Shown here: piece by piece, positions 1,254 through 17,240 of the stretch | How the letters are laid out: every line of letters starts with the position of its first letter | How positions within the stretch are numbered: position 1 is the first letter of the stretch | Source of the DNA: Gammaproteobacteria bacterium | Lineage (GTDB): Bacteria > Pseudomonadota > Gammaproteobacteria > VBWC01 | Assembly: GCA_023266115.1 (NCBI GenBank) | Contig: JAHFRU010000003.1 | Location: 1-64,000, forward strand | Length of the DNA: 64,000 nt | Reading direction: 5' to 3' | Notes under the pieces: model-generated | The model's database searches: none | The model's input: the letters and a program-made list of their open reading frames with translations, nothing else | Told to the model about the DNA's origin: nothing | Position numbers and translations under genes: made by a program

Positions 1254-1736
1254 ATGACGGAAACCGTGCTTAGCAGCCGTCACGTTCGCCGTATTACCGG
1301 ATTGTCACAACGCCAACTACGTTACTGGCGCCAAACAGAATTAATCGTTCCTTCGCAGCAAACGTCTGGCGGGCACGCGCGCTATTCGTTTCTTGATCTG
1401 ATCGCTCTAAAAGCCGCCAAACGTCTGCTGGATGCCGCTGTACCGCTTCAGCGCATTCGGAAATGTATCGCGTCACTTGTCGAGCGTCTACCGGCTTTAT
1501 CAGTCCCGTTGGCGCAGGTGTCGCTGCTGGTGACCGACGATATCGTGCTCGTGTTTCATCAGGGATCTGTTTTCGATGCCCTTTCTGGACAGGAGTGGAT
1601 ATTTCCTGTCGCCGATCTCCTGCGCGATGTTGAGCAGATATCGGCCAAACCTGCTGTCAGGCCGCTTTACCAACAGGAACTTTTTCCGGACATCGAGTGG
1701 GGCCCTTGGTCAGTGACGCCGGCTGCTGGCGTTTAG
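1254..1736 (+). CDS. MerR-type transcriptional regulator heading the ParA cluster
   Basis: The 160-residue protein has a MerR-type winged helix-turn-helix at residues 6-70 (SSRHVRRITGLSQRQLRYWRQ, then the wing GGHARYSFLDLIALK and the helix pair LLDAAVPLQRIRKCI). It lacks the long dimerisation coiled coil and Cys-rich effector site of metal-responsive MerR proteins. Instead residues 85-130 form a beta-rich segment (VSLLVTDDIVLVFHQGSVFDALSGQ), as in the short MerR proteins found beside ParA genes in various Proteobacteria. A GGGGG ribosome site lies six bases before the ATG. It is 109 bases upstream of the ParA fusion and probably controls it; the ligand is unknown. Confidence 0.85.
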   Translation: MTETVLSSRHVRRITGLSQRQLRYWRQTELIVPSQQTSGGHARYSFLDLIALKAAKRLLDAAVPLQRIRKCIASLVERLPALSVPLAQVSLLVTDDIVLVFHQGSVFDALSGQEWIFPVADLLRDVEQISAKPAVRPLYQQELFPDIEWGPWSVTPAAGV

Positions 1737-1845: not shown

Positions 1846-3027
1846 ATGGAAATTATTGCTATTGCTAACCAGAAAGGCGGATGCGGAAAGACGACGACAG
1901 CGATCAATCTGGCGGCGTGCCTCGGGCACAATGGATTGCGCGTATTGCTGCTCGATATGGATCCACAGGGACACGCTTCGCTAGGCCTGGGACAAAAGAC
2001 CAGCGATCTCGCCAGCCTGTACGAAGTATTTCTTGGTGAAACCGCGCTGCCCGACATCATCATTCCCGCTGTGGCGACGGGGGTCGATCTGATTCCTGCC
2101 AATATCTCATTGGCGGCGGTGGAGCACGTGCTGGCCGACAAACCGGAACGTGAACGCCAGCTCGCCATATTTCTGGAAGATATTACACCTCGCTACGATT
2201 ACGTGATTATCGATTGCCCGCCGTCGCTCGGATTGTTGTCAATTAATGCGTTACGTGCGTCAAATCAAGTGCTGGTACCGCTTGAGGCGAGCCGGTTTGC
2301 GCTGGATGGCATCGACCGGCTACATGAAATCATCGACCTTGTGTGCGAACAGTACGGGCTTAATTTGCCGGTAAGAATTCTTCCGACAATGATCGATTTG
2401 CGCACTCGCCTGGCAAAGAAGTTGCTGCAGCTGATCCGCGAGGAGTTCGCGGACGAGGTATCCGAAGTAATGATCCGCTATACGATACGTTTGAAAGAGG
2501 CCGCTTGCGTGGGCCAATCGATTATAGAATTTGCGCCCGAGTCAGGCGGCGCACGGGATTATCAGGCGTTGGCACTGGAAATCATCGAGCGCAGTCAACA
2601 GGTGCATTCAGCACTGATGGACAAGCTGCGCAAGAACTGGATGGCCGAAAACGCCCAGTCGCTTATCAAGGAGTCCGTGCCCGTCCGGGCAATCGAGCAG
2701 TTAGAGCAGCAGAAGGCGAGGTATCCCGCGAAATCTCCACCCCCAGCCCTGCGTATGCATGAGCGCGCCGGCAAACAGGAGGTCATTCTCGATTTCCAGG
2801 AGCTAAACGAATGCGATCTGAAGATTGCCGGCGACTTCAATGACTGGATTCCTGATCAGGGCGTAAGAACGATCTCGATCAACGGTTCGGTAAAAAAGGT
2901 GCTTAATGTCACACCTGGCTCGCATGAGTACCGACTGATCATCGACGGTATCTGGCAGCCGGATCCGACCAATCCCAACAAGGTGCCGAATCCTTTGGGT
3001 GGAATTAATTCCTTGCTTAACGTATAA
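1846..3027 (+). CDS. ParA/MinD-type ATPase fused to a C-terminal glycogen-binding (CBM48/AMPK-beta-like) domain
   Basis: Residues 1-255 are a complete ParA-type ATPase: deviant Walker A KGGCGKTTT with signature Lys10 and Lys15, Walker A' LLLDMDPQG (Asp37, Asp39), and Walker B VIIDCPPS (Asp123). A Lys/Gln-rich helical linker follows (256-305). Residues 310-393 match the early-set glycogen-binding domain of AMPK beta: FNDW (331-334), PGSHEYRLIIDGIW (357-370), DPTNP, and the closing LGGINSLLNV. The positions that contact sugar in AMPK beta are occupied by Trp334, Arg363 (Lys in AMPK), Trp370 and Asn388, so carbohydrate binding looks intact. ParA proteins use ATP-driven, surface-bound gradients to position DNA or protein cargo. 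No ParB is nearby. Coupling to an alpha-glucan is inferred from the fused domain. Confidence 0.93.
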   Translation: MEIIAIANQKGGCGKTTTAINLAACLGHNGLRVLLLDMDPQGHASLGLGQKTSDLASLYEVFLGETALPDIIIPAVATGVDLIPANISLAAVEHVLADKPERERQLAIFLEDITPRYDYVIIDCPPSLGLLSINALRASNQVLVPLEASRFALDGIDRLHEIIDLVCEQYGLNLPVRILPTMIDLRTRLAKKLLQLIREEFADEVSEVMIRYTIRLKEAACVGQSIIEFAPESGGARDYQALALEIIERSQQVHSALMDKLRKNWMAENAQSLIKESVPVRAIEQLEQQKARYPAKSPPPALRMHERAGKQEVILDFQELNECDLKIAGDFNDWIPDQGVRTISINGSVKKVLNVTPGSHEYRLIIDGIWQPDPTNPNKVPNPLGGINSLLNV

Positions 3028-3056
3028 ACAGGTTTTTATGATGCCTGCGTTTGCAT

Positions 3057-3833
3057 ATGGTTGAAAAAAACGATCGCCGTACGCCTGGATCAAAAGAAAG
3101 GCTGGCCGAGATCAGTCACCATTTTCTCAGTGAACCGGCGGTGGTCGTGGATACCCGGCATCGTCCTTCGTTCATGCCGGTGTTGCTGGATGACGTCGCT
3201 GACGTCTGGGCTGCCCATTGTATTGCCAGGGCGTTGACGACGCGTAAACGTCCGTCAACGGTCGTGTATGTCGAGCGCGAGATGCAACAGGCAGCGCTCG
3301 ATACGCTCGCCAATATCGACCGGCGCGGACTCGTAGTGCCACTGACACGACGCGGCGACTGGAACAATCACAATGCGGCGCAATTGCGCTTGCTAAAAGC
3401 GATGGGCACACAGAACTCACTGCACAAGTTTTGCCTGATCCCGATCAGCAACCTGCAAACGCCCGTGCTGGATATATTCGACCGGCTGTTGATGACGGTA
3501 GCGCCGGGGCTCGCCGCGCTGCGTAGTGCCTATCTGCGCGTAAAGCGACTGTCGAGTAATGCGAATCCGACGATCGGCGTGACTGTTATCGATTGTAACA
3601 ATCAGGAAGACGCGCGGCTCTATTTTGACAAGCTCGCCGTCGCCGCGTTGCGCTTTCTCGGCCAGCGACTCATCTATTGCGGTTATATTCCGCGCCATTT
3701 CGCGCAAGGAGCCGGCGTTGAGCCCGCCGTCCGCATAGCGGAAGGTATCCCGTCGGAACTGCGTGATGTGACCGATCATATTCTCACCAATAAACTTTAT
3801 GTGTCATTAACAACATCGGATAGTCAGCCATGA
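3057..3833 (+). CDS. ParA/FlhG-like protein lacking the P-loop (probable pseudo-ATPase)
   Basis: The 258-residue product has no Walker A or Walker B motif. Its second half nevertheless resembles the C-terminal half of MinD/FlhG-type ATPases: LRSAYLRVKRLSS where those proteins have 'DAYALIKLL', then IGVTVIDCNNQEDARLYFDKL, RFLGQRLIYCGYIPRH and a final AVRIAEGIPSEL. The N-terminal half (VLLDDVADVWAAHCIARAL) is compatible with the same fold. It follows the ParA-CBM gene by 29 bases and its stop overlaps the next start (ATGA), so the three are one operon. A partner or decoy subunit for the upstream ATPase is plausible. The ATG at 3057 is preferred over an in-frame TTG at 3051. The fold assignment is my reading of motifs, not a search result. 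Confidence 0.7.
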   Translation: MVEKNDRRTPGSKERLAEISHHFLSEPAVVVDTRHRPSFMPVLLDDVADVWAAHCIARALTTRKRPSTVVYVEREMQQAALDTLANIDRRGLVVPLTRRGDWNNHNAAQLRLLKAMGTQNSLHKFCLIPISNLQTPVLDIFDRLLMTVAPGLAALRSAYLRVKRLSSNANPTIGVTVIDCNNQEDARLYFDKLAVAALRFLGQRLIYCGYIPRHFAQGAGVEPAVRIAEGIPSELRDVTDHILTNKLYVSLTTSDSQP

Positions 3834-4472: not shown

Positions 4473-7400
4473 TCACGGTGCGGCGGGTGGGGTATTGAAT
4501 TGCCGCTGTTGCAGCGCCTTCTCAAGATCGTCGAGCGAAAATTTTGGCTTCGAGAAGCTCGGCATTTGAACGGTTATCGCGTTGTGCTTGCGTGACATTG
4601 ATCCGTCCGCGGACGTGATTAACAGGTCGTATGCACCTAACGGTAGTGCCGGCGACACAGGCAAGTGAAGACGGTCGCGTTCCATCGGCATGACCCGTGT
4701 TGCGGGAAGCAGCTGAACTGCCGTTACGGCCTCGCTGCCAGCGAAATATGCCACGTCCCGATAAACAAAAACCCGGTCGACCGGATTGGCCAGTGTATAT
4801 GTAGCGCCGGGTATGGGCGTCGCGTTGGATGAGACATTCCAGGTAAGAAGCTCACCGTCCGCGACAGTGGCGAAAAGCTGACCGCCTTTCGCCACAACCG
4901 ACCGCGCACCGTTGAGGCGCATGGCAAGCCCGGTCGGCATTATCGACGACTCGCGACGGGAAAAGATCGATAATTGCTGCTGGTCGTAGCTGACCAGATG
5001 TTCTTTCGTCGCCGTCAGCCGCGCGGGTTCATAGGCGAGTTGCACTCGCTGTTTGAGAAGAAGATTTTGCGGATCCGCCGCATCAAACATCAGAATTTCC
5101 CGGTTCGGCATGGCCGTGAATAACGCAGCGCCATCGGTGAAGAAATCATTTATTCGTCCCGGATATCCGCCGACGCGTACCGGGCGGCGACGCTGCTGAG
5201 TATCGAATATTGCTAGGCCGGTTGAACGGTCGAGGACATACAACCAGTGCCCCGCCGCCTGCATGCGTTCGACATCACCTGTGTACTCGAGCGTACCAAT
5301 CTGGTTAGCCTCAAACGGATTGTGTAAATCGATAATGGCGATCGCACCGTTTCTAAGTGCAACGTAGGCGACGTCATCGAATACGCTCAAGCGCATCGCG
5401 TCCGAGGCGAGTTCCACTGTAGTTACCCAGGTCGGATTCAGCGCATTATTAATATCGAATACCTGCAGTCCTCCGGCACCGTGGGCGGTGACAAGAAAAT
5501 TACCGAGCGCCGAAATCTGGCTGATCCTGCCGCGCAGGCTATATTGCGACGATAGCCGAGGGCTGGCGGGATCGGTAACGTCCAGCATCACTAGGCCGCC
5601 CCACCAGTCCAGCACGACCGCATGTTCACCGGCGACCCTGATGCCCCAGGCAGCGCCGTCCGTGTCATAACTGGCGATGATCTCCGGCTTGTCCGGTTGA
5701 CTGACGTCGACAATGTGTATGCCCGCCAGCCAGTCCGCGACGTATAATTTTTTTCCGTGCAAATCCAGTCCGCGCGCATTGCCGGGAGTCGCAAGGTGTG
5801 CGATCTGTTGCGGCTGATCGGGTCTGCTGATATCAAGAATATAGACGCCGTCGTTGAACGAGGTGATATAGGCGTAGTTGCCTCCGACGACGATCTCCTC
5901 CACCTGTCCGCCGGGCACAAACGACCCGACGAGTAACGGCTGCGCCGGGTCGTGAACGTCAAAGACGAGCAGCCCGGCATCGTCATCGGCGACGAAGGCG
6001 AATCCATCCTTGATATCGAGCGACCAGGCCTTGCCCGGGGTATCGTATTCGCCGACCAGTCGCGGTGCCTGGGGGACCGCGATATCGATCACCTGGAAAC
6101 CGCCACGGTGGCTCGCCAGATAGAGCAGGTCGCCAGAGATTTTCGGCGTGTATGCGAGACCGTTTACCGGTAGATTACCGACCTGTCGAGGATGGCGCGG
6201 ATCCTGAACATCGAGCACCTGCAAGCCGTGGTCGTCGTCAGCGACATAGGCGATGTCGTTTCTGACCACGACACCCTTCGGTGAACCAGGTGTGTGAAAG
6301 CTGGATAGCAACCGCGGCCTGTCGGGAGCCGAGATATCATATATATGTATGCCGGAGAACCAGTCCGCCACGTAGACGATATCCCCGTCAATAAATGCAC
6401 GACGCTGACCGCCAAAATTAACGCCTTGTCCGATATCGAGCAGTTCATTCGATAGAGACGGCGGTTCGGCGGAAAAATCGATGTGCACCACGTCGGAAGA
6501 CATCGCCACCATCGCCTGTCGTCGATCGAGGGTGACAGCTTGCACGTTGCCTTTCGGTTTGTAGCCGGACACTATCGTCGGCATCGCCGGTAGCGCGATA
6601 TCCAGCAGTAACAGAGCTCCGTTCTCCCGGAGCAACAGTGCGTCGTCGCCCTGAACGACTATTTGCTTTATGACGCCGACACGATGGTGGCTGGCTAACC
6701 AGCGCGGTGCCTGCGGGTCCGACACGTCAATCACGGTTAGCCCACTACGACGGCCGGCCACCAGCAATAGATCATCCCGTTTGGCGAGCACACCGGCGCC
6801 GTCTATCATCCTGAATATCCCGGCGGCCCCGAACTGCGCCGGGTCACGCAGGTCGTACGTCAGCAGGCCACGGGTGGTCGCGGCAAAAACAAATCCTCTG
6901 TGGATGACGATATGATCGATCGTATCTTCCGGACGTATATTAATTGTCTGCCTGATTTTCGCGGGGTTCTCGGTGTTCACAACAACGAGTTCGTTGTCGC
7001 GGTACAGCAGGGCGACGAGACCATCGCCGGCGGCGTAATCTTTGACGTCGTCCCGCAGGGGGTAGCGGGAGCGCGGCGCTGACTGGATCGGTCGTGACAG
7101 ATCGAATATCAACAACTCACGATCGCCGGACAGGACGTATGCCGTGTCGCCGGCGATACGGACCGCGAGGCTGTTAATGTCGGAAAGCGCCCTGCCCTCC
7201 CCGGCGCCGTCGTTCTTGTCATCGATGAATCGCGTCAGCAGACCAGCCGCGCCGGCGGCGATAATCAATTGTTCCTTGTAGAACGCGATGTCACGGACGC
7301 CATCAGCGAACGAAAACCGTGTGAGCGGTTGAGGACCGCCGGGGCTCAGCGTCGCATATAACGGGCTCTGCGCGGCGGCCGACACGCCGATAGAAATATC

Positions 7401-7517
7401 CGTCGCCTTGCCAAATACCACGGACTGCGGTTCGACGGATTCGATCACAGGTGACTCGACGGCATATGCCATGAGCGGCAATACGACCGCGCAAACGGTT
7501 GTCAGAAGTCTCTGCAT
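4473..7517 (-). CDS. Exported LVIVD-repeat beta-propeller protein, about 1000 residues
   Basis: The 1014-residue product starts with a signal peptide (MQRLLTTVCAVVLPLMAYA). The body consists of about 40-residue repeats with the LVIVD signature 'LxVxDVSDPxxPxLVG'; clear examples read IHIYDISAPDRPRLLSSF, LQVLDVQDPRHPRQVGNL, FQVIDIAVPQAPRLVGEY and IHIVDVSQPDKPEIIASY. I count at least eleven good units and several degenerate ones, enough for two propellers. The C-terminus (residues 930-1000) has a short beta domain and a Gln-rich tail. LVIVD proteins are surface or periplasmic proteins usually of unknown ligand. The gene is convergent with the ParA cluster (61-base gap) and lies 117 bases downstream of hemL, probably with its own promoter. 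Confidence 0.88.
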   Translation of the reverse strand: MQRLLTTVCAVVLPLMAYAVESPVIESVEPQSVVFGKATDISIGVSAAAQSPLYATLSPGGPQPLTRFSFADGVRDIAFYKEQLIIAAGAAGLLTRFIDDKNDGAGEGRALSDINSLAVRIAGDTAYVLSGDRELLIFDLSRPIQSAPRSRYPLRDDVKDYAAGDGLVALLYRDNELVVVNTENPAKIRQTINIRPEDTIDHIVIHRGFVFAATTRGLLTYDLRDPAQFGAAGIFRMIDGAGVLAKRDDLLLVAGRRSGLTVIDVSDPQAPRWLASHHRVGVIKQIVVQGDDALLLRENGALLLLDIALPAMPTIVSGYKPKGNVQAVTLDRRQAMVAMSSDVVHIDFSAEPPSLSNELLDIGQGVNFGGQRRAFIDGDIVYVADWFSGIHIYDISAPDRPRLLSSFHTPGSPKGVVVRNDIAYVADDDHGLQVLDVQDPRHPRQVGNLPVNGLAYTPKISGDLLYLASHRGGFQVIDIAVPQAPRLVGEYDTPGKAWSLDIKDGFAFVADDDAGLLVFDVHDPAQPLLVGSFVPGGQVEEIVVGGNYAYITSFNDGVYILDISRPDQPQQIAHLATPGNARGLDLHGKKLYVADWLAGIHIVDVSQPDKPEIIASYDTDGAAWGIRVAGEHAVVLDWWGGLVMLDVTDPASPRLSSQYSLRGRISQISALGNFLVTAHGAGGLQVFDINNALNPTWVTTVELASDAMRLSVFDDVAYVALRNGAIAIIDLHNPFEANQIGTLEYTGDVERMQAAGHWLYVLDRSTGLAIFDTQQRRRPVRVGGYPGRINDFFTDGAALFTAMPNREILMFDAADPQNLLLKQRVQLAYEPARLTATKEHLVSYDQQQLSIFSRRESSIMPTGLAMRLNGARSVVAKGGQLFATVADGELLTWNVSSNATPIPGATYTLANPVDRVFVYRDVAYFAGSEAVTAVQLLPATRVMPMERDRLHLPVSPALPLGAYDLLITSADGSMSRKHNAITVQMPSFSKPKFSLDDLEKALQQRQFNTPPAAP

Positions 7518-14726: not shown

Positions 14727-17240
14727 TCAGCGTTCAGGAACCGCGGTTGCATCCGGCAGATGTACCTTGACCGGGGACACGTGCCAGATATCTTCGGCGT
14801 ATTCGCGTATCGTGCGGTCGCTGGAAAACTTGCCCATGTGCGCAACGTTTATGATGGCCTTGCGCGTCCACTCTTCCTGGTTGCCATATAACGCTGCCAC
14901 ATCATTATGGCAGTTGATATACGACTCATAATCCGCGAGCAGCATGTGCGCGTCGCCGTGGTGCAGCAGCGCATTTACGACAGGCTCATAAAGCCGGGGC
15001 TGCTCGCGGTTAAAGAATCCTGAGCCAATCATATCGATCGCAAGCCTCAGCGCGTTGTCCCGATCATAATAGGTCCGCGGATCGTAACCGCCGGCACGTA
15101 ACTGCGCTATCCCATCGGTCGTGTGGCCGAATATGAAGATATTCTCGTGTCCGACTTCTTCGCGAATTTCGATGTTGGCACCATCCAGTGTGCCAATGGT
15201 CAGCGCCCCATTCAGCGCAAACTTCATGTTGCTGGTCCCGGACGCCTCCATGCCCGCCATCGATATTTGTTGCGACAGGTCGCAGGCCGGAATAATGTCC
15301 TCCGCCAGTGACACGTTGTAGTTCGGAATAAACGCTACCTTGAGTATGTCCGATACCGCAGGATCGTGGTTCACGACGCCGGCAACGTCATTGATCAGCT
15401 TGATAATGAGCTTTGCCATGGTGTAGCCGGGAGCCGCCTTGCCGGCGAATATCACCGTACGAGGTGTCGTGTCGCCGCCAGAATTGGCGCGAATCCGGTT
15501 GTATAGCGTAATTACGTGCAGCAGGTTCAGCAGCTGGCGCTTATATTCGTGAATCCGTTTGACGTGTATATCAAATATTGAACTGCTATCAACGCTGATG
15601 CCAAGCTGCGACTTAATCAATGCTGCGAGGCGCTCCTTGTTGGCACGTTTTACTGCGCGAAACTCTTCGCGGAACCTGGCGTCGTTGGCGAGTGGGACCA
15701 GTTTGTTTAATTCGTCCAGGTTCTTGAGCCAGGCGTCACCGATGTGTCGGCGGATCAAGGTGGACAACTGAGGATTGGCCTGATTCAGCCAGCGTCTCGG
15801 CGTGACTCCGTTGGTCTTGTTGACGAATTTTTCCGGCTGCAGCCGGTAGAAATCCGCAAATATGGTTTTTTTCATCAGATGGGTGTGGAGTTCGGCAACG
15901 CCATTCACACGATGACTGCCAATGATCGCAAGATACGCCATGCGCACACGACGCCCGCCCTCTTCGTCGATGATAGACAGGCGGCGCAGCAGATCGGTAT
16001 CGCCAGGGTGGCGGTGACCGACCTCGGTCAGGAAGCGCTGGTTAATCTCGAAGATAATCTCCAGATGCCTCGGCAGCAGTTTTGAAAATGTCGCCACTGG
16101 CCAGGTTTCGAGCGCCTCCGGCATCAACGTATGGTTGGTATAGGAAAACGTTCGGGTTGTGACCGACCACGCCTCGTCCCAAGGCGTACGGTGTACATCG
16201 ACCAGTAGCCGCATCATTTCCGGTATGGCAATAGACGGATGAGTATCATTGAGCTGAATCGCGATCTGGTCCGGCAGCTCGTCGAAAAACTCATGATGTT
16301 TTTTGTACCGGAAAATAATGTCCTGTAACGACGCGCTGACAAACAGGTACTCCTGCTTCAAACGCAACTCCTTACCCATATATGTGGTGTCGTCCGGGTA
16401 CAGCACCTTGGAGATTGTTTCCGATCCGCTCTTGTGTTCGACAGCCTTGATGTAATTGCCGCGGTTGAAGTCGCGCAGTTCGAAATCGCGCGACGATTTG
16501 GCGGCCCACAACCGCATGTTGTTGACCGTATGCGTGCCATAACCCGGAATCGGCGTGTCGTAGGCCATCGCCATGATATCGTCCGTATCGACCCAATGAT
16601 GACGGACCTTGCCGCTCTCATCGGGATACTGCACGGTGTGGCCGTAGAATTTTATCGGGTACAGCACCTCCGGCCGTGGAAACTCCCATGGGTTGCCGTA
16701 GCGTAACCAGTTATCCGGATGCTCCACCTGGTAACCGTTTTCGATGTACTGATAAAACATCCCGTACTCGTAGCGTATGCCGTAGCCATAGCCCGGTATG
16801 CCAAGCGTCGCCATCGAATCGAGGAAACACGCCGCCAGTCTGCCAAGACCACCGTTGCCCAGCGCCGCCTCCGGTTCCATATCGTCGATCTGTTCGAGAG
16901 TGACGCCAATACTTTCGATCGCGTGCTTGAATACATCAAGGATGCCCATGTTAAGCAGACTGTTGATCAACGTTCTGCCCATCAGGAATTCCAGCGAAAA
17001 GTAATAGACGCGCTTGGTTTCTACACGGTAGTAGGTGCGCATCGTCTCCATCCAGCGATCAACGAGGCGGTCGCGAATCACATAGGCCGCTACGTGATAC
17101 CAGTCGCGCGCTGTGACCGTATTCAGGTCCTTGCCGATGAAATAGTGAAGACGTGACGCGAGCGAGCGTTTAATAGACTCCTCGTCCAGCCCCAGCGGTT
17201 TGTTCCCCAGCGTACCGGCATCCTTGTCTTTGGCCGCCAT
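14727..17240 (-). CDS. glgP: Glycogen/starch/alpha-glucan phosphorylase
   Basis: The 837-residue enzyme releases glucose-1-phosphate from alpha-1,4-glucans using PLP. It has the GT35 family layout: LNTVTARDWYHVAAYVIRDRL and RVYYFSLEFLMGRTL at the N-terminus, ALGNGGLGRLAACFLDSMATL, the FNRGNYIKAVEHK segment, NDTHPSIAIPEMMRLL, TNGVTPRRW, and the PLP-lysine region EASGTSNMKFALNGALTIGTLDGANIEI. Length is normal for bacterial GlgP. No other glycogen gene (glgA, glgB, glgC) is in the window. It is convergent with rho and divergent from rpmE. It is relevant to the glycogen-binding ParA fusion at 1846. Confidence 0.98.
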   Translation of the reverse strand: MAAKDKDAGTLGNKPLGLDEESIKRSLASRLHYFIGKDLNTVTARDWYHVAAYVIRDRLVDRWMETMRTYYRVETKRVYYFSLEFLMGRTLINSLLNMGILDVFKHAIESIGVTLEQIDDMEPEAALGNGGLGRLAACFLDSMATLGIPGYGYGIRYEYGMFYQYIENGYQVEHPDNWLRYGNPWEFPRPEVLYPIKFYGHTVQYPDESGKVRHHWVDTDDIMAMAYDTPIPGYGTHTVNNMRLWAAKSSRDFELRDFNRGNYIKAVEHKSGSETISKVLYPDDTTYMGKELRLKQEYLFVSASLQDIIFRYKKHHEFFDELPDQIAIQLNDTHPSIAIPEMMRLLVDVHRTPWDEAWSVTTRTFSYTNHTLMPEALETWPVATFSKLLPRHLEIIFEINQRFLTEVGHRHPGDTDLLRRLSIIDEEGGRRVRMAYLAIIGSHRVNGVAELHTHLMKKTIFADFYRLQPEKFVNKTNGVTPRRWLNQANPQLSTLIRRHIGDAWLKNLDELNKLVPLANDARFREEFRAVKRANKERLAALIKSQLGISVDSSSIFDIHVKRIHEYKRQLLNLLHVITLYNRIRANSGGDTTPRTVIFAGKAAPGYTMAKLIIKLINDVAGVVNHDPAVSDILKVAFIPNYNVSLAEDIIPACDLSQQISMAGMEASGTSNMKFALNGALTIGTLDGANIEIREEVGHENIFIFGHTTDGIAQLRAGGYDPRTYYDRDNALRLAIDMIGSGFFNREQPRLYEPVVNALLHHGDAHMLLADYESYINCHNDVAALYGNQEEWTRKAIINVAHMGKFSSDRTIREYAEDIWHVSPVKVHLPDATAVPER

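Follow-up and report, generated by a model that had tools for sequence, protein, structure and literature searches.

A Conserved Gene Cassette Encoding a ParA-Type ATPase Fused to an AMPK-Type Carbohydrate-Binding Domain, a Candidate System for the Positioning or Sensing of Glycogen Stores

We describe a gene cassette, conserved in several phyla, in which a ParA-type ATPase, from the group of ATPases by which bacteria position chromosomes and organelles, carries a C-terminal carbohydrate-binding domain (CBM) of the AMPK-β type, and we regard this ParA-CBM cassette as a candidate system by which glycogen stores may be positioned or sensed. The window, which is the whole stretch of 64,000 nt from a gammaproteobacterial genome that was analyzed here, encodes, in this order, a MerR-type regulator, ParA-CBM, ORF3, and ORF4 (table 1), and the same order recurs in many genomes. 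The parts belong to known families; their combination and the cassette appear to be undescribed. An initial annotation of the ParA-CBM gene knew of no characterized example, and in the open-access literature, to which our search was confined (subscription papers being outside its scope), we likewise found no paper linking ParA with an AMPK-type CBM. The placing and sharing of glycogen by bacteria is a live question, which a conserved ParA with a putative glycogen-binding domain makes testable. We know of no glycogen positioner in Escherichia coli. Glycogen in this species gathers at the old pole, where it pushes the nucleoid aside and renders division unequal (PMC12706056, PMC4836754). In a review from 2025 on how organelles are positioned, glycogen receives no mention (PMC13052382).

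Table 1. Positions of the cassette genes, their domains, and a glycogen phosphorylase gene in the window
Feature	Position	Strand	Basis or remark
MerR-type regulator, 160 aa, first cassette gene	1254..1736	+	Pfam MerR_1, 8.9e-14
ParA-type ATPase ending in an AMPK-type carbohydrate-binding domain, 393 aa	1846..3027	+	Pfam AAA_31 and AMPK1_CBM; full length kept in relatives
ParA ATPase half, residues 1–255, deviant Walker A KGGCGKT	1846..2610	+	Closest solved chain 8ray
AMPK-β/CBM48-type domain, residues 310–393, with W334, R363, W370, and N388	2773..3024	+	Profile matches; contact residues per PMC4032982
ORF3, pseudo-FlhG/MinD-fold partner candidate, 258 aa	3057..3833	+	Profile, AF2 model, Foldseek; TTG at 3051 as an alternative start
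Motif KERLAEISHHFLS at the ORF3 N-terminus, candidate peptide for contact with ParA	3093..3131	+	Conserved across phyla
ORF4, probable degenerate PD-(D/E)XK nuclease-fold protein, 193 aa	3830..4411	+	AF2, Foldseek; ATGA overlap with ORF3 stop
Glycogen phosphorylase GlgP, outside the cassette	14727..17240	-	Family judged from translated sequence

Domain Architecture and Conserved Residues of ParA-CBM

The ParA-CBM gene has an ATG start with GGAGG upstream and is free of frameshifts. Pfam model AAA_31 matches residues 1–170 of the protein (e value 1e-53) and AMPK1_CBM (PF16561) matches residues 326–393 (e value 5e-6; 27.1 bits, cut-off 26.8); genome-wide, PF16561 matches only this protein (31.8 bits). 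A phmmer search with ParA-CBM alone linked the N-terminal half to Soj/ParA chains, the closest solved chain (8ray) matching the ATPase half at 1.9e-52, and the C-terminus to AMPK-β structures (4y0g, 1.6e-6). A family profile of 12 members reached AMPK-β structures at an e value of 3e-12 and also matched the CBM48 of the plant glucan phosphatases SEX4/LSF1, which bears out the proposal of the initial annotation that the last ~84 residues are an AMPK-β/CBM48 domain. With a profile built without the window's protein, its C-terminus scored 126 bits versus 8.5 bits for the best of 2,000 shuffles. Profile homology to solved CBMs thus points to an early-set fold for this region.

The ATPase half had been credited with every ParA motif including the signature lysine, and K10 and K15 of the deviant Walker A motif as well as D37, D39, and D123 are indeed identical in all 72 members of the clade delineated below. 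Walker B and the ParA fold are present as well. K191 and R215, which align with Lys199 and Lys230 of HpParA, are arginine or lysine in 60 and 65 of these 72 sequences, respectively, and the positions of HpParA Lys227 and Lys247 are occupied in the window by Tyr and Glu and are not basic. HpParA has four DNA-binding lysines, namely K199, K227, K230, and K247 (PMC11229316), and nucleoid binding by ParA-CBM is plausible on the basis of this alignment.

In the CBM, W334, R363, W370, and N388 align with W100, K126 (a conservative change), W133, and N150 of AMPK-β, in agreement with the sugar-contact positions to which they had been assigned. These four residues are critical for glycogen binding by AMPK β1 (PMC4032982), which is abolished by the AMPK-β substitutions W100G and K126Q (PMC6274970). 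The four positions are kept across several phyla, including Myxococcota, Rokubacteria, and Phycisphaerales lineages without glycogen markers, and neither tryptophan has been lost in these homologs; this conservation is partly circular for L062–L141, loci that were found with CBM peptide patterns, and circularity is largely avoided for the 14 members from the window's class, which were ranked by full-length similarity arising mostly from the ParA half.

Distribution and Phylogeny of ParA-CBM

Among the 369 genomes sampled from the window's class, 16 carry one distinct ParA subfamily (more than 240 bits, whereas ordinary ParAs score less than 197 bits), and 14 of these 16 ParAs have the CBM. A scan of named genomes with a CBM alignment retained 80 loci, most with a fused ParA, that span Pseudomonadota, Myxococcota, Nitrospirota, Planctomycetota, Omnitrophota, Rokubacteria, and Auribacterota. 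The fused proteins, 70 in all, form essentially one ancient ParA clade that stands apart from ordinary chromosomal ParAs. Neighborhood and tree analyses were carried out on a set of 73 loci, 71 of which have the CBM and among which one genome locus is represented twice. The ParA halves of the pooled set lie on one side of a branch with 100% support, opposite 30 chromosomal ParAs; when paralogs were included that came from 12 genomes, ten of which belong to other phyla, the tree gave two changes, with the CBM-less L154 inside the clade. The clade members that lack the CBM are L154 (genome G379), L058 (G177), and L059 (G284), and L058 keeps the MerR gene. The simplest reading of these sequences would be one fusion followed by occasional loss of the CBM, although a single origin is more than the sampling can prove.

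Early-set domains are frequent mediators of protein contacts, and this, together with the three CBM-less clade members, would suit an explanation in which the CBM-like domain is a protein–protein or dimerization module and the cargo is an ordinary one such as a chemosensory array, a secretion machine, or, via MerR, DNA. We consider that explanation quite improbable, given that several phyla have kept both tryptophans along with the basic residue and asparagine, which a pure protein interface would not need.

Several further observations were made in the course of these surveys. Genome G375 has two ParA-CBM paralogs (L156 and L148), and at L063 (positions 7001–7252) a CBM lies beside the remains of a MerR-like frame with no intact ParA open reading frame, possibly as a result of a deletion or an assembly error. 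Six loci (L097, L105, L121, L130, L133, and L139) encode small proteins in which an AMPK-type CBM stands alone, preceded by a Lys-rich N-terminal tail; these recall the PhaF/AlgP tethers between granule and nucleoid and may be passive glycogen tethers. An origin of ParA-CBM from a plasmid or phage was rejected, the C-terminal third having no match in 72,556 plasmid and 50,697 phage records.

A Conserved Four-Gene Cassette

The initial annotation had suggested that ParA–CBM architectures be searched for and their neighborhoods mapped, and many of the 73 loci share a cassette across several phyla. A MerR gene lies directly upstream of ParA-CBM in 25 of the 73 loci (Gammaproteobacteria, Nitrospirota, and Myxococcota), with conservation that extends beyond the HTH into the C-terminal part of this MerR family, and is not adjacent to the Phycisphaerae members. 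Directly downstream, 40 of the 73 loci have an ORF3-like gene (28 and 12 in two clusters), and in 26 (14 and 12) an ORF4-like gene is next. ORF4 follows ORF3 in Gammaproteobacteria, Nitrospirota, Myxococcota, and Omnitrophota, and at 12 Phycisphaerae loci there is a longer downstream protein that, judged by eye, resembles a fusion of ORF3 with an ORF4-like end. The initial annotation had proposed a cargo domain built into the ATPase in place of an adaptor protein. The first part of this proposal stands in that the CBM is fused; the second does not, given that partners are not dispensed with and the ParA-CBM gene lies in a conserved cassette beside genes for a MerR regulator, a pseudo-FlhG, and a protein with what is probably a degenerate nuclease fold.

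A promoter/terminator scan and Rfam gave no match. A defense system was considered and rejected: PADLOC returned no relevant match for ORF3 or ORF4, and its matches to MerR and ParA were weak and generic. Convergent with the cassette, at window positions 4473–7517 on the reverse strand, is a gene for a 1,014-aa protein with eight LVIVD repeats (PF08309, 2e-71). Response-regulator genes, long multidomain proteins among them, recur downstream of the gammaproteobacterial loci L048, L049, L065, and L075, and L087, L088, L090, L101, and L106 have genes for a GH57 protein and a putative membrane-anchored protein upstream and for a very Lys-rich protein downstream.

ORF3 and ORF4

A profile of the ORF3 family matches FlhG/FleN (1e-11), and the AF2 model of ORF3 (pLDDT 77.5) has FlhG (4rz2) as its best Foldseek match (2.8e-8). 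L114, the least degenerate member, matches FlhG by sequence alone (2.4e-10). A P-loop (KGGxGKT-like motif) is absent from every aligned ORF3 member. The conserved N-terminal motif of ORF3 reads (R/K)xLxxISHHFLS, of which the cross-phylum form is (R/K)xLxx[IV]xHxFL; in Rokubacteria and at L115 this motif sits on the ORF4-like protein instead. The motifs of L114 (LGKGLEDISYLFLS) and L093 look like the LGRGLxALL of ParB. We do not claim a ParB-like identity for ORF3, because a PWM derived from the motifs of 25 cassettes scored a median of 4.8 bits on real ParB N-termini versus 7.3 bits for the 95th percentile of the control, and the likeness of L114 and L093 is not significant in this test.

The AF2 model of ORF4 (pLDDT 80.9) matches EndoMS/NucS (3.2e-3) and Shedu (6.5e-3) in Foldseek, each with probability 1.00 and a moderate e value, and a weak sequence match to NucS agrees with this result. 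ORF4 lacks the catalytic E-x-K and has no obvious active site. On these models, ORF3 and ORF4 look like inactivated folds that have been reused as partners.

FleN/FlhG, the nearest fold to ORF3, doubles as a transcriptional antiactivator, and this brings in the chief rival to a role in positioning, namely that ParA-CBM is a glucan sensor in which glycogen on the CBM alters the complex with ORF3 and ORF4, which would then act on transcription, via MerR or some other target, or on an enzyme, much as AMPK and FleN are regulators that place no cargo. The MerR regulator, as a constant neighbor, would fit such a sensor, and AMPK β senses glycogen with the same domain (PMC6274970). ParA-CBM, however, has no kinase or other output domain, its catalytic residues and two positions of the DNA patch match those of genuine ParAs, and the Phycisphaerae members have no MerR beside them. 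We judge a sensor unlikely on balance.

Association with Glycogen Metabolism

GlgA (TIGR02095, over the cut-off) is encoded in each of the 14 genomes with ParA-CBM in the class sample versus 199 of the 369 genomes overall (hypergeometric P = 1.4e-4; about 2e-3 when each of the 10 families is counted once). PhaC, used as a control, is unassociated (2 of 14 vs. 71 of 369), and PHA was rejected as the cargo. Outside the class, GlgA passes the cut-off in 6 of 15 ParA-CBM genomes; among the nine without it, one has a GT3, one a full GlgP, three have phosphorylase-family matches, and four (two Myxococcota, one Rokubacterium, and one Phycisphaerales) have none of these. A universal co-occurrence with glycogen genes is therefore rejected, as it fails outside Gammaproteobacteria. 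A GH57 α-glucan enzyme is encoded directly upstream of ParA-CBM in five loci, four from Omnitrophota and one filed under Planctomycetales, and in G082 an aldose-epimerase-family gene lies downstream. Besides GlgP, the genome of the window has GlgA (G000:C46:139382). Clustering of the cassette with glycogen genes was rejected, however, because neither GlgP, nor GlgA, nor a 932-aa open reading frame beside GlgA was found close to the cassette of any relative.

The link to glycogen is thus well supported in the window's class and weaker elsewhere, and because some Myxococcota, Rokubacteria, and Phycisphaerales lack every glycogen marker searched, glycogen is the likeliest ligand only in that class. 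The same fusion-bearing lineages, which are without GlgA, GlgP, and GT3, speak for a different ligand, such that the CBM would bind another storage glucan, a precursor of the cell wall or capsule, or an enzyme bound to glucan, and the cargo would be a polysaccharide machine. The four AMPK glucan-contact positions are nevertheless kept in these lineages too, and in the class sample GlgA accompanies the fusion without exception, which makes another carbohydrate improbable. The glucan-related role put forward in the initial annotation fits both the conservation of residues and the co-occurrence with GlgA in the class.

A Possible Mechanism

The reading we prefer, at somewhat less than an even chance, is that ParA-CBM is a spatial-organization ATPase of the ParA type whose cargo is an α-glucan, most likely glycogen in the window's class, and which acts as a nucleoid-bound tether that is released by ORF3/ORF4. 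An ATP-bound dimer would sit on the nucleoid through the basic patch of ParA and its AMPK-type domains would grip glucan chains, so that the dimer would tie glycogen to DNA. ORF3, with its P-loop lost, may bind the dimer through its N-terminal basic/aliphatic helix, trigger ATP hydrolysis, and free the tether, with ORF4 as its putative obligate companion and MerR as the presumed regulator of the operon. Glycogen would then be spread or equally inherited and would not form one polar mass.

ParA/MinD ATPases need a partner that stimulates hydrolysis by means of a short basic peptide at its N-terminus (PMC13170346, PMC12462528), and these partners are very diverse (PMC10241942). Because ORF3 has a conserved N-terminal basic/aliphatic motif and its gene is directly downstream, it is the natural partner candidate, by analogy, since similarity to ParB N-termini in the PWM comparison is not significant. 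The built-in CBM would not simply make a ParA/ParB ratchet, because known systems put cargo recognition on the partner and not on the ATPase. If this reading is correct, ParA-CBM would be a ParA with a built-in cargo domain and the FlhG-fold pseudo-ATPase would be a new type of partner. A further step, which we regard as possible and more doubtful, is that the cassette is a new class of storage-polymer partition system, conserved in several phyla, in which a nucleoid-riding ParA holds glycogen via its fused AMPK-type domain, is driven by a pair of pseudo-FlhG and dead nuclease, and shares glycogen at division.

Comparison with Known Systems

ORF3 shares its fold with FlhG/FleN and differs from them in lacking Walker A and in having an N-terminal HHFLS motif, and ORF4 probably shares its fold with the nuclease domains of NucS/EndoMS and Shedu, at moderate e values, and differs in lacking the catalytic E-x-K. 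ParA-CBM resembles chromosomal ParA/Soj of ParABS in its ATPase fold and its deviant Walker A, and two of the four positions of the DNA-binding patch are mostly basic; however, it falls into a clade of its own, marked by KGGCGKT and a CBM at the C-terminus, and the next gene is ORF3 and not ParB. No cognate ParB is found at ParA-CBM, where the downstream gene encodes a pseudo-FlhG, and the ParB of the genome adjoins a different ParA. In PomXYZ of Myxococcus, two proteins likewise serve as partners of a ParA/MinD ATPase (PMC13170346), but for a different cargo. PhaM, PhaF, and AlgP join a storage granule to DNA (PMC13052382) and, unlike ParA-CBM, have no ATPase and use histone-like or helix-hairpin-helix DNA binding. 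With the glycogen-binding domain of AMPK-β, ParA-CBM has the domain family and the sugar-contact residues in common, whereas K126 is replaced by Arg and T148 by Gly and the domain is carried on a ParA ATPase and not on a kinase scaffold. The McdAB system for carboxysome positioning, in which a ParA-type ATPase organizes a carbon-related body, serves as our working analogy; McdA reaches its cargo via McdB (PMC13052382), whereas ParA-CBM has a carbohydrate domain of its own and a pseudo-FlhG as its partner candidate.
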